Assembly: GCA_029210325.1 (NCBI GenBank)
Contig: JARGPU010000001.1
Span: 1,436,126-1,500,125, forward strand
From: Alcanivoracaceae bacterium
GTDB taxonomy: Bacteria > Pseudomonadota > Gammaproteobacteria > Pseudomonadales > Alcanivoracaceae
Reading direction: 5' to 3'
Length of the DNA: 64,000 bases
Shown here: one piece after another, positions 1,483 through 5,186 of the stretch
How positions within the stretch are numbered: the stretch's first letter is position 1
Layout of the letters: each line of letters begins with the position of its first letter
Position numbers and translations under genes: made by a program
Notes under the pieces: model-generated
Database searches by the model: none
What the model was told of the DNA's origin: nothing
What the model saw: the letters and a program-made list of their open reading frames with translations, nothing else

Positions 1483-2709
1483 TCAAGCAGAATCAGGCTC
1501 AATTCGATATTGCTCGATGGGCTTTCCATCAGCCCCAACAAGATTCACCTCAATCGGAATCCGAGTGAGAAACTCATGTGTGTCGGCCTTGCGAATATTG
1601 CGCAGGTATTCTTTCACTCGCCCGGCAATCCACGGATGCACTGTAGCCTTGAACTTTACCTTGCCGCACTTCTTGCCCCGTTCCTTGCCCCAGGCAAACA
1701 GCTCCTGACTGATCTTCTCGAAATGTCCCTGAAACTGATTAAAATCATCCGCCATCACATAAATGTCGAACACATAAACACTCGAAAGCAGCCCCGCTTT
1801 TTCTTTGATCTCCTTGCAGCGCATGCGTGATTCCAGCTTCACCTCTGCGCTATTGCCATCGACAAACTTGGCCGCTGCGGGCGCTGGGGTTGGTGTTGTG
1901 CCAGCGGCAGAAGGCGCTGCCACGGCAGACAAACTTTTCAAGGCAACAACCACCTCACTGCCACGCTGAAAGCGCTGCTCCGGATCCTTTGCCATCAACT
2001 TGCGCACCAGCGGTTGCCAACGTTTTTTATCGCCCGGCAACAACGGAATCGGTTCGGAAATATGCTTGATGCCAATCGACATGGCGTCCTCGCCGGTATA
2101 CGGCGCGCGCCCGGTGAGCATCTCGAACAGCACCACACCGAGCGAATACAGATCCGCCCGTGAGTCGACACCCTTACCACGATGTTGCTCCGGGCTCATG
2201 TATTTTGGTGTACCAACGATGGTGCCCAGCTGTGTCATGGCCTCATCGCCCTGCATCGGCCGGGCAATGCCAAAGTCCATCAGCACCGCAGAGCCGTCGC
2301 CCCGAAACATGATGTTATCCGGCTTGATGTCGCGGTGAATGATGTCCTGCTCGCCGGTGTAATCCAGCGCAGCGGCAATTTCCGCGGTGATACGCTGGAT
2401 ATCGTCATCTTCAAGACCATCGCGCAGGCGCTGCTTCAGGGTGCCGCCGACAATATGCTCCATGCTCATATAGTGCAGATCGCCATGGCTGCCAATATCA
2501 AACACAGGCACGATATGTGGGTGACTCAGCTGCGCCATCATTTTCGCTTCGCGAATAAATCGTTGGCTGAAAGTTGGGTCCGCCGCCAGCGCCGGGTTCA
2601 TCACCTTGATGGCTACCGGGCGATCAAATGATTCCTGTACAGCAAGGTAAACATTGGCCATGCCACCACGGCCGATTTTTGATTGAAGTCGATAACCTGG
2701 AATTTGCAC
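1483..2709 (-). CDS. Hanks-type serine/threonine protein kinase, soluble, with an extra C-terminal domain
   Basis: The 408 residues start with a complete eukaryotic-like kinase domain (about 1-265): glycine loop GRGGMA at 13-18, VAIK with Lys35, Glu54 of helix C, HRDIKPDN at 125-132, DFG at 145-147, and GTPKYMSPEQ of the activation segment. A short Ala/Pro-rich linker near 270-290 leads to about 120 unassigned residues rich in charged amino acids. No transmembrane helix is present, unlike PknB-type receptors, so it should act in the cytosol. The start is a GTG preceded by AAGGAAG. It follows the receiver-protein gene by 63 bases on the same strand, which suggests one operon and linked phospho-signalling. 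The substrate is unknown. Confidence 0.9.
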   Translation of the reverse strand: MQIPGYRLQSKIGRGGMANVYLAVQESFDRPVAIKVMNPALAADPTFSQRFIREAKMMAQLSHPHIVPVFDIGSHGDLHYMSMEHIVGGTLKQRLRDGLEDDDIQRITAEIAAALDYTGEQDIIHRDIKPDNIMFRGDGSAVLMDFGIARPMQGDEAMTQLGTIVGTPKYMSPEQHRGKGVDSRADLYSLGVVLFEMLTGRAPYTGEDAMSIGIKHISEPIPLLPGDKKRWQPLVRKLMAKDPEQRFQRGSEVVVALKSLSAVAAPSAAGTTPTPAPAAAKFVDGNSAEVKLESRMRCKEIKEKAGLLSSVYVFDIYVMADDFNQFQGHFEKISQELFAWGKERGKKCGKVKFKATVHPWIAGRVKEYLRNIRKADTHEFLTRIPIEVNLVGADGKPIEQYRIEPDSA

Positions 2710-2772: not shown

Positions 2773-3270
2773 TTATTCCCCGTAAGCGGCTTTCATCGCC
2801 TCCGCAGATTCCCGGCTGCGGCGCAGTTTCGCTTCCAGTCGTTTCTTCTGGTAGTCGAGCTGCAAGAAGAAATTGACCTTGGAGCAGAGCATGGTTGGGT
2901 CAATGGGTTTGAACAGATAATCCACCGCGCCACTTTGATAACCACGACGCATATTGCGATCGTCACGGGAGTTGGCGGTGACAAAGATGATCGGTACGTT
3001 CATGGTGCGCTTGTTAGAACGCATGATCTCGGCCACTTCAAAACCATCCATCTCTGGCATCTGCACATCCAGCAGTACCAGCGAGAACTCCTGTTTGAGT
3101 AGCTTGCCCAGCGCTTCCGCGCCTGAAGCGGCCGAAACCAAATTACACGGCAGGTCTTCCAGTACCACTTGCAGGGCAACCAGATTCTCCGGCGTGTCAT
3201 CCACCATCAGCACGTTCTGTGGCGGGATATCGAGCTGGTCATCTTGTGACTGGGTCTGTTCGTCGCTCAT
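2773..3270 (-). CDS. Single-domain response regulator (CheY-like receiver)
   Basis: A 165-residue protein that is almost entirely a receiver domain. The acidic pair is in MVDDTP (residues 22-27), the phospho-acceptor is Asp68 in LLDVQMPEMDG, the switch Thr is in FVTAN, and Lys121 lies in the YLFKPI motif. After residue 130 comes a charged, probably helical tail (QKKRLEAKLRRSRESAEAM) with no DNA-binding or enzymatic output domain. It therefore works by protein contact. No histidine kinase is nearby; the next gene downstream is a Ser/Thr kinase, a plausible partner. An 87-base gap separates it from the membrane protein gene upstream. Confidence 0.9.
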   Translation of the reverse strand: MSDEQTQSQDDQLDIPPQNVLMVDDTPENLVALQVVLEDLPCNLVSAASGAEALGKLLKQEFSLVLLDVQMPEMDGFEVAEIMRSNKRTMNVPIIFVTANSRDDRNMRRGYQSGAVDYLFKPIDPTMLCSKVNFFLQLDYQKKRLEAKLRRSRESAEAMKAAYGE

Positions 3271-3357: not shown

Positions 3358-4371
3358 TTACGCTTCGCTGGGGTCCTGCTTCCACTGCTGCACCGCCACC
3401 TGCACCTTCACCTGATCCAGAATATCCAGCAAAGTGTCCCGGATAAGCTGGTTTAGTTGCTCCCGGTCGCCGGCGGCATTACGCAGGATACCGTCGATCA
3501 GTTCATCCAGCGTGTTGCGGTTGGCGGGGTCAGTGAGGTCTTCTACCAGTTGATCTGTGAGCGCAACGCCAAGCTCGCGCACGGTGTCGCCGAGCAGGGC
3601 CAGTGCCCGTGGGCCGGCGACTGGAATGGCCGCCAAACGGGCGCCGCTGGGGGTGCGCGCTACCGCATCGTCGGTGAGCTGCGACAGGTAATCGCCCAGC
3701 CCCTGACGCCATTCGCCGTGGGTGCGGGCAGCGATATCCACCAGCCGGCTGGCAACAAAGTCCACCAGTTCCTGACGGCGCGGTACCAGCACTTCGGCTT
3801 CGATACGGTGGACCAGCGGCGAGCCCTCGCGGATTTCCCGCTGCACGCCATCGAGGACATTGATCACCACCCGATCAGAGATCTCTTCGACCACGATGCG
3901 GTAGTACTTGAGCACGGTAAAGCCGAGCCAGGTGTAGCGCAGGTCGACAATCCCGGTGCGCTGCAGGCGGTACAGCAGGCTGATAATGCGCAGGATGCGC
4001 AGCCAGCGAAAACCGCCCACCGGGATGCAGCCGAGCAGGTCATACCAATGGGCAAAGGGATAGAAAAACCAGCGATGGTAGGTCTGTCGAACCACGGCGA
4101 TGATCCAGCGCACGGTAAATTCGGTCAGGTAGATGCTGACGAAGATCAGGTCCCAGAAGATAAAGTCGTTGTGGATGGTGTCGCGATAGAAAAGGGTAAA
4201 CGACGGCGCCAGCCACATTAGTCCCTGTTGCACCGGTTGGGCGCTGAATAGCCAATCAAACAGAATCAGGCCAAGGTTAAGCACCACCAGCACGATCATG
4301 GCCAGATCGACCAGTAGGCCAAGACCATCCAGATTCATGCGCAAGCGTTCGCGGTGCCACTGCACGGCCAT
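3358..4371 (-). CDS. Voltage-sensor-like (S1-S4) membrane protein without a pore domain
   Basis: A 337-residue protein with four hydrophobic segments in the first 140 residues that look like an ion-channel voltage sensor. S1 is at about 15-42. S2 is at about 70-93 with Glu84 in YLTEFTVRW. S3 contains WYDLLGCIP with Asp111. S4 has arginines 122, 125, 128, 135 and 138, largely at every third position. No pore helix or selectivity filter follows; instead about 200 soluble residues, mostly helical and rich in charged and Leu residues, complete the protein. Automated pipelines may call it an ion transporter. Its ATG lies two bases after the xthA stop, so the two are co-transcribed. The function is not known. 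Confidence 0.7.
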   Translation of the reverse strand: MAVQWHRERLRMNLDGLGLLVDLAMIVLVVLNLGLILFDWLFSAQPVQQGLMWLAPSFTLFYRDTIHNDFIFWDLIFVSIYLTEFTVRWIIAVVRQTYHRWFFYPFAHWYDLLGCIPVGGFRWLRILRIISLLYRLQRTGIVDLRYTWLGFTVLKYYRIVVEEISDRVVINVLDGVQREIREGSPLVHRIEAEVLVPRRQELVDFVASRLVDIAARTHGEWRQGLGDYLSQLTDDAVARTPSGARLAAIPVAGPRALALLGDTVRELGVALTDQLVEDLTDPANRNTLDELIDGILRNAAGDREQLNQLIRDTLLDILDQVKVQVAVQQWKQDPSEA

Positions 4372-4373
4372 GG

Positions 4374-5186
4374 CTAGTTGAACTCCACCCAGACCGGGCA
4401 GTGATCCGATGGCCGCTCCATGGAGCGGATTTCGTAATCAATGCCGGAATCTTTGACCCTGTCCTGCAGGGGCTTGCTGGCGAGGATGCCATCAATGCGC
4501 AGGCCCCGGCGCGGCTCCCGTTCGAAGCCTTTGGAGCGATAGTCAAACCAGCTGAACAGCTCGTTGGTGTCGCCGTGGATACGCCGGTAGGTGTCTTCCA
4601 GACCCCAGCCGAGCAGGCGCTGGAACCACTCGCGCTCCTCCGGCAGGAAGCTGGTTTTGCCGTCGCGCAGCCAGCGTTTGCGGTTGTCTTCGCCAATGCC
4701 GATATCACAGTCCTGAGCGGAAATATTGAAGTCGCCCATCACCACTACGGCATCTTCCGGGCTGTGGTGGTTTTCCAGATAGTGCTGCAGGTCAGCGTAG
4801 AACTTTTCCTTGGCGGGAAATTTCACCGGGTGGTCGCGGCTTTCACCCTGGGGGAAATAGCCGTTCAGGACGGTGACCGGTTTGCCGTCCGGGCCCGCCA
4901 GCTTGCCGATAATCATGCGGCGCTGGGCGTCTTCCGGATCGCCGGGGAAGCCCCGTTGGATATCCAGCAGCGGCTCACGGCTTAGCAGGGCGACGCCGTA
5001 ATGGCCTTTCTGGCCAAAATAATAGGGGTGATAACCCAGCTCGCGGATGCTGTCCTCAGGGAATTCGGCATCCTGCACCTTGATTTCCTGCAGACCGATC
5101 AGGTCAGGCTGGTAGCTGGCAATCAGCTGCTCGACCTGATGGGGGCGGGCGCGGATGCCATTGATATTGAAAGAGATCAGTTTCAT
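4374..5186 (-). CDS. xthA: Exodeoxyribonuclease III (AP endonuclease)
   Basis: A 270-residue Mg-dependent exonuclease and abasic-site endonuclease for base excision repair. Conserved residues are Asn7 in [10 protein letters not shown], Glu34 in GLQEIKVQD, Tyr110 in [10 protein letters not shown], Asp152 and Asn154 in [14 protein letters not shown], and the terminal SDHCPVW with Asp261-His262. The length matches E. coli ExoIII (268). The ATG at 5186 starts exactly at the family N-terminus [10 protein letters not shown]; a longer in-frame extension upstream has no homologous character. A TACAAT -10-like hexamer lies upstream on the minus strand. The gene is divergent from an alpha/beta hydrolase gene and leads into the voltage-sensor-like gene. 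Confidence 0.94.

Follow-up and report, generated by a model that had tools for sequence, protein, structure and literature searches.

A gene in the window, that is, the whole 64,000-nucleotide stretch of DNA that was analyzed, probably (at roughly 60%) encodes a membrane-potential sensor, in which a channel-related S1–S4 voltage-sensor domain (VSD) is fused to a helical cytosolic part of about 190 residues that replaces the pore. In the genomes sampled, this domain has the ancestry of a channel VSD and a conserved charge plan, is followed by no pore, and is paired with the helical part. At about even odds, the poreless bacterial family turns membrane potential directly into a non-enzymatic protein signal in the cytosol; it would then be an electromechanical receptor outside eukaryotes that occurs in several phyla and is misnamed in some public records.

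Gene and Protein Organization

Translation of the ORF on the minus strand placed the ATG of the VSD protein at 4371–4369 and its stop codon at 3358–3360, and the stop of the upstream gene xthA (4374–4376) is followed after two bases by this ATG (Table 1). The coordinates, the frame and the two-base spacing given in the original prediction were all correct according to the ORF call, and the residues to which it had pointed as a voltage-sensor charge plan (Arg at 122, 125, 128, 135 and 138, with Glu84 and Asp111) are present in the translation of the window. The xthA product was assigned by the NCBIfam equivalog for exodeoxyribonuclease III with a score above the curated cut-off. The VSD protein received no name from Pfam or NCBIfam. 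Just past the VSD gene, and on the same strand, the window contains a stand-alone response regulator gene at 2776–3270 (minus) and a PknB-like Ser/Thr kinase gene at 1486–2709 (minus).

Table 1. Coordinates in the window of the VSD gene, the parts of its product and the neighboring xthA gene
Feature	Coordinates	Strand	Basis
Voltage-sensor-domain (VSD) protein, poreless, 337 aa	3361..4371	-	ORF call, AF2 model, profile match, conservation
S1, residues 14–42; N32	4246..4332	-	Model, conservation, profile alignment
S1–S2 segment, residues 43–69; two predicted short helices (to 67), Y62 and H67 conserved	4165..4245	-	Model, profile alignment, conservation
S2, residues 70–95; D74, aromatic Y81, E84, R88	4087..4164	-	Model, conservation, profile alignment
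S3, residues 101–117 (WFFYPFAHWYDLLGCIP); short, D111	4021..4071	-	Model, conservation, profile alignment
S4, residues 121–138; R122/R125/R128 in register, S131, R135	3958..4011	-	Model, conservation, profile alignment
First cytosolic helix, residues 148–181; EEISDR at 162–167	3829..3930	-	Model, conservation
Remaining helical output part, residues 182–337	3361..3828	-	Models, conservation, hydropathy
xthA, exodeoxyribonuclease III, 270 aa; upstream neighbor of the VSD gene, 2-bp gap	4374..5186	-	ORF call, NCBIfam

Homology to Channel Voltage Sensors

Residues 1–150 of 47 family members were compared by hhalign with S1–S4 of 18 Ion_trans channels from bacteria of the same order. The two profiles aligned from S1 to S4 over 95 columns, at 96.7% and with a score of 63.2; the controls reached at most 22.4 in 100 column shuffles and 31.6 in 100 block shuffles, and 16.9 with the reversed alignment. 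The comparison with five compact GYGD-filter K+ channels gave 97.4% and a score of 71.3 over 62 columns of S2–S4 (100 block shuffles, 23.6 or less); these channels are not an independent choice, since they had been found by profiles of the poreless VSD family itself. Since these scores exceed those of the shuffled and reversed controls, the match is not attributable to chance, and the profile comparison indicates that the 337-residue protein carries a VSD homologous to channel S1–S4.

When the family profile was run blind on whole genomes, it matched GYGD K+ channels at S2–S4, namely L142 (E value, 1.7e-4) and L143 (E value, 4.8e-4). Further channels of this kind, L219–L221, were matched with E values of 8.6e-5 to 1.7e-4, L220 being the same place as L142, and L219 was recognized as Pfam Ion_trans (PF00520) at 5.6e-22. 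Ion_trans was also the Pfam family touched by the largest number of members, with 14 of 48 at E values up to 0.5 and a best value of 0.0079, which lies below the cut-off; the window protein had no Ion_trans match up to an E value of 10. A search of the VSD profile against PDB sequences placed ion-transport proteins in the top four rows at E values of only 0.49–0.53, and the same database returned no relevant match with the window protein or with the whole-protein profile.

In the hhalign alignment with the 18 channels, Y81 and E84 pair with the Phe and Glu of S2, D111 with the Asp of S3, P117 with the Pro of S3, and R122, R125 and R128 with the arginines of S4. N32 pairs with an Asn in L144, the first channel of the set, of which the consensus is Ser. 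In the ungapped alignment with the compact K+ channels, as we read it, Arg is the counterpart of R125 and R128 only, and R122 is placed opposite Gln. The compact channels (L142, L143, L219, L221 and L235) have a very short S3–S4 (WIDLLACIPAG in most) and were the best-scoring channel relatives among those compared. The S1–S2 segment is an insertion that has no counterpart in the channel VSDs to which the family was aligned by hhalign.

Conservation of the Charge Plan

The conservation set was obtained from 139 sequences, of which 107 were distinct (32 duplicates dropped), and consisted of 53 representatives with less than 70% identity. Addition of 19 later loci contributed eight new representatives, including divergent ones, and enlarged the set to 61; the fragment L141 was excluded. 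R125 and R128 are invariant (53/53 and 61/61), and R122 is present in 51 of the 53 representatives (one Lys, one His) and in 59 of the 61. Position 84 is occupied by 49 Glu and 4 Asp among the 53, and by 52 Glu, 8 Asp and 1 Asn in the enlarged set (acidic in 60/61), while position 111 has 52 Asp and 1 Glu, and 58 Asp and 3 Glu, respectively (acidic in 61/61). An aromatic residue (F/Y) stands at position 81 in 59 of 61 representatives, with Leu in the other two. Two features of VSDs, the charge-transfer center of S2 aromatic, S2 acid and S3 acid and the RxxRxxR motif of S4, are thus seen across the 61 representatives with these few exceptions. S1 also carries the conserved residues D22 and D39 (53 representatives). 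At positions 122, 125 and 128, the 53 representatives make use of every one of the six Arg codons, so it is the amino acid itself that is held there.

The five gating arginines of the original prediction have to be reduced to three in register. R122, R125 and R128 follow the three-residue gating register, but the next place, 131, is mostly Ser (37/53) and R135 is out of register. Position 135 is nevertheless largely basic (49 Arg and 4 Lys of 53; 54 Arg, 5 Lys and 2 Leu of 61), and position 138 is variable, with 27 Lys, 21 Arg, 3 Gln and 2 Glu among the 53. Loss of the arginines in homologues, which had been named beforehand as a refuting outcome, did not occur among the 61 representatives.

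A short subfamily (L218 1384–2163, minus; L229 1465–2265, minus), with frames of 262–267 residues and without the S1–S2 insertion, retains R122, R125 and R128 together with part of the tail; in L218, Asn takes the place of the usual S2 Glu at position 84. The divergent full-length member L217 (1396–2487, plus) has Asp at 32, Leu at 81 and Glu at 111. The S1–S2 segment is expected to lie on the periplasmic side. It contains Tyr62 in 51 and His67 in 50 of the 53 representatives, and it might be a binding site for something.

It is unlikely that S1–S4 is a relic of a channel sensor that is kept only as a membrane anchor and makes no physiological response to voltage, with the helical part doing the work. 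Certain channel S1–S4 domains are voltage-insensitive, and the short S3–S4, the three in-register arginines and the lack of a fourth gating charge would suit such an origin; the presence of only three in-register arginines and the shortness of S3 and of the S3–S4 turn are likewise points against the sensor reading. However, an anchor would not need the set of residues that has been kept, which consists of R122 (59/61), R125 and R128 (61/61), the acids at 84 and 111 and the aromatic at 81, nor the retention of Arg through all six of its codons.

That the VSD itself conducts protons or cations, as Hv1 or a gating-pore leak does, is improbable. A poreless VSD with three S4 arginines is the architecture of Hv1, and column 32, which we take to be equivalent to the selectivity Asp of human Hv1 (D112), is occupied by Asp in the divergent member L217. 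Among the 61 representatives, however, this column contains 57 Asn, 3 Ser and 1 Asp (D22 and D39 being further conserved acids of S1), and the S4 Trp of the RxWRxxR motif is absent, with position 124 being Leu in 54, Phe in 6, Ala in 1 and Trp in none. An acidic S1 residue and RxWRxxR are given as the recognition criteria of Hv channels in a passage of a review (PMC10377628), and by its S4 motif, the Trp of which is missing in 61 of 61 sequences, the protein is not an Hv1-type channel. Another study describes a helical cytosolic part at the end of Hv1 as well (PMC6392501), which is a further point in favor of conduction.

Absence of a Pore

No transmembrane-like stretch was detected after S4; 19-residue windows past residue 145 had a maximum mean hydropathy of 0.72, compared with 2.51 in S1. 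The pore filter pattern T-[VIL]-G-[YFL]-G was absent from 139 of 139 family sequences. Similarly, no pore-domain ORF was found in 86 family loci (1.03 Mb including controls), which differ in length and extend at most about 6 kb to either side, and both positive controls were detected by the same scan. The protein lacks the S5–P–S6 pore that follows S4 in a 6TM voltage-gated channel. Together with the profile match and the conservation, the hydropathy, filter and locus scans bore out the earlier proposal of a stand-alone VSD that is followed by a helical cytosolic part and not by a pore. Channel genes are present elsewhere in the genome.

The VSD protein could also be the sensor subunit of a split channel and pair with a pore protein encoded elsewhere, but this is given a low probability. 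In its favor, hERG functions from non-covalently joined sensor and pore modules, as a published study reports (PMC5805800), and the highest-scoring match was that to the compact K+ channels. Against it stand the 86 loci with no pore-domain ORF and the helical part, which is the constant partner in the sampled genomes.

Predicted Structure

An AF2 model built without templates (mean pLDDT, 80.2) consists of S1, two short helices, S2, a short and broken S3, S4 (residues 124–138 in the model), and then helices only. When the whole model was searched against the PDB by Foldseek, no row was significant; the best E value was 0.47, for a chemoreceptor-type model, and the best NavAb row had an E value of 1.6. 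In VIA-align, the first 13 rows were voltage-gated channels, with the rows at Z 8.0–8.5 spanning whole chains at 26–35 Å; a Z near 8 can be reached by an arrangement that is perhaps common in helical proteins. In four channel rows the alignment stayed within the sensor; two of these were NavAb, one was KCNQ5 and one carried the title “channel C.” They covered model residues 8–142 at 3.4–4.5 Å over 98–117 residues with Z of 7.2–7.8, and the flagellar chaperone 5xef fitted this stretch just as well (Z, 7.5; 4.4 Å over 101 residues).

Because of the equal fit of 5xef and the non-significant Foldseek result, the structure comparison of this model is regarded as supportive and suggestive, being non-significant when taken alone, and it is the sequence profile that decides the identity of the sensor. 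S1–S4 are present in the predicted model, and the refuting outcome of a model with no four-helix sensor did not arise; the resemblance to known sensors by structural comparison alone is just suggestive.

Helical Output Part and Proposed Mechanism

The part that follows S4 comprises about 190 residues and is all-helical in the AF2 model; modeled alone, it forms seven helices with a pLDDT of 85. E162, E163, D166, P250 and G253 are present in 53 of 53 representatives and W330 in 52 of 53. Two of the later loci have Asp at position 163, and EEISDR (162/163/166) is not conserved in the short subfamily (L218/L229). Foldseek comparison of this part alone with the PDB gave generic long-helix matches with a best E value of 0.037. 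The best VIA Z was 7.5 at an rmsd of 22 Å; no row that covered 150 or more residues was better than 14 Å, and the closer fits extended over about 50–80 residues.

A search with the output part alone in 274 genomes returned matches in seven genomes at E values of 0.001 or less, six of which were known VSD proteins and the seventh a marginal match (E value, 4.6e-4) in an 843-residue frame. The helical part is the constant partner of the VSD in the genomes sampled. Profile and structure searches recognized no relative of it, and no constant neighbor gene was found in the loci examined.

Two candidate identities of the C-terminal part were rejected. DUF445 (PF04286) reached an E value of 0.094 in one of 48 members, with 13 bits against a cut-off of 33.8, and hhalign gave 3.5% against 11 DUF445 proteins. 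A voltage-sensing phosphatase was the other candidate, and no phosphatase match was obtained. The single cysteine of the window protein is C115, and a Cys-type or PTEN-like phosphatase is excluded because no cysteine follows it; among the 53 representatives, 10 contain cysteine beyond position 145.

As a statement of ancestry and design, the sensor reading is well supported by these sequence data, and the activity is predicted from it. Under a normal inside-negative potential, R122, R125 and R128 would be drawn inward past a charge-transfer site formed by the aromatic residue at 81, E84 and D111, and a collapse of the potential would cause S4 to move outward. The pull of S4 would be transmitted through the helix from S4 to EEISDR into the helical part, which may then change its packing or oligomeric state and alter its binding to a putative partner. 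We infer the movement of S4 with voltage, the direction of this movement, the oligomerization and an output that is protein-binding rather than enzymatic.

Distribution of the Family

The VSD gene was found in 39 of 57 related genomes. In its own family it occurred in 35 of 36, the exception being a genome that is 64% complete, and elsewhere in the order it occurred in 4 of 21. Of 369 genomes sampled from the class, 10 had the gene, counting its own genome and one short fragment; of 398 sampled from the phylum, 20 had it, counting its own genome and one divergent short form. Searches of named genome contigs listed 595 pattern-matched stretches with at least 564 relatives, and 80 loci were kept for analysis. 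Among the matches listed, relatives occur in Alcanivorax, Alloalcanivorax, Ketobacter and Marinobacter, and the closest named relative is that of Alcanivorax sp. 1008 (96% identity), which suggests that the window comes from an Alcanivorax-type bacterium. By record title, relatives also occur in Balneolales and other Bacteroidetes, Calditrichota and Myxococcota, mostly on MAG contigs, which may be subject to binning errors.

Six Acinetobacter baumannii plasmid-collection records carry a homologue at about 30% identity. This homologue (L033 5815–6858) is annotated as “preprotein translocase subunit SecA” in CP040048.1 and CP035931.1, which looks like a naming error, and in CP040048.1 its neighbors are an acyltransferase gene on one side and minCDE on the other. 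A record filed as “Acinetobacter phage MD-2021a” (L034, CAKLQH020000030.1) contains phosphomannomutase, dut, a helicase gene, minCDE and ftsK in the part examined and reads like host chromosome rather than phage.

Genomic Neighborhood and xthA

All 28 Alcanivorax-type loci have xthA immediately upstream of the VSD gene, at distances of −8 to +22 bp and with a 4-bp overlap in 14 of them. Of these loci, 27 bear the title Alcanivorax, Alloalcanivorax or Alcanivoracaceae, and L075 was assigned to a genome of this family. Among the other 52 of the 80 loci, xthA was found in one (L086), and 50 show neither xthA nor a related nuclease gene in the DNA examined. At L092 1791–2930 (plus), on a contig titled Calditrichota, an Exo_endo_phos_3 (endonuclease/exonuclease/phosphatase) gene is located 12 bases upstream of the VSD gene, and this second and distant case of a nuclease neighbor may be due to chance. 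The next gene belongs to an amidase cluster in 18 and to a QueG cluster in 7 of the 45 usable non-Alcanivorax rows, one member per cluster having been named by Pfam; this count omits 7 of the 52 loci, two of which are short and five of which had the frame lost by the simple ORF caller. minCDE follows the VSD gene in one Acinetobacter record.

The xthA link, the conservation of which across genomes had been named as a check, is therefore tight in Alcanivorax-type loci (28/28) and nearly absent elsewhere (1/52). The xthA operon is lineage-bound and gives no indication of function, and we interpret the common operon as co-expression within a single lineage. A general exonuclease link was rejected because other lineages have different neighbors, and the functional tie to exonuclease III and DNA repair in the original prediction is left unsupported by the same counts. 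It is very improbable that the VSD protein works with exonuclease III and so links DNA repair to membrane potential or to damage of the envelope. The 28 Alcanivorax-type loci, xthA in L086 and another nuclease of the superfamily in L092 are in favor of this, but 50 of the 52 other loci have no such gene in the DNA examined, and the next genes outside the Alcanivorax type include those of the amidase and QueG clusters, with minCDE in Acinetobacter.

Comparison With Known Systems

Poreless VSDs are known from eukaryotes, where they occur in Hv1, voltage-sensing phosphatases and TMEM266; what is new here is a bacterial poreless VSD together with a new cytosolic part. A passage of a 2023 review states that every known prokaryotic VSD comes with a pore (PMC10377628), and one of a 2024 review states that bacteria and archaea are without Hv channels (PMC13095418). 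As a conserved bacterial VSD without a pore, the present family, judged by its sequences, contradicts the first of these statements. The open-licence literature of PubMed Central, to which the search was confined (subscription papers and preprints being outside its scope), yielded no paper on a poreless bacterial VSD and none that brings a voltage-sensing domain together with Alcanivorax.

If S4 moves, membrane potential is read directly by a receptor protein in bacteria, and bacterial voltage sensing would be testable with one gene in Alcanivorax, a marine and typically oil-degrading genus. A small bacterial VSD would also serve structural work and voltage indicators.

The VSDs of bacterial voltage-gated channels (Ion_trans channels; the compact K+ channels L142, L219, L221 and L235; Nav-type channels such as NavAb) share with the window protein a homologous S1–S4, the aromatic and acidic residues of S2, the Asp of S3 and an Arg at every third place of S4. 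The window protein differs from them in having no S5–pore–S6, in the S1–S2 insertion and in the helical cytosolic part, and its S3–S4 is shorter than that of the 18-channel Ion_trans set. Hv1 shares the poreless VSD and three S4 arginines, but the bacterial family is without the S4 Trp and has mostly Asn at what is presumably the S1 selectivity site. Ci-VSP, a voltage-sensing phosphatase, likewise combines a poreless VSD with a cytosolic output part, whereas in the window protein no phosphatase domain was matched and the last cysteine is at residue 115. In SLC9C1, the sperm Na+/H+ exchanger, the VSD drives something besides a channel pore, according to a published study (PMC6052114); the window protein has no match to an exchanger or nucleotide-binding domain. 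TMEM266 of vertebrates is described in one study as a voltage sensor with no known effector, and a poreless VSD, three S4 arginines, the charge-transfer triad and a helical extension of S4 are common to both proteins (PMC6392501). TMEM266 is eukaryotic and closest to Hv1, and the same study gives the tail past its coiled coil as predicted to be disordered (PMC6392501), whereas the bacterial protein has a conserved helical part in this place.
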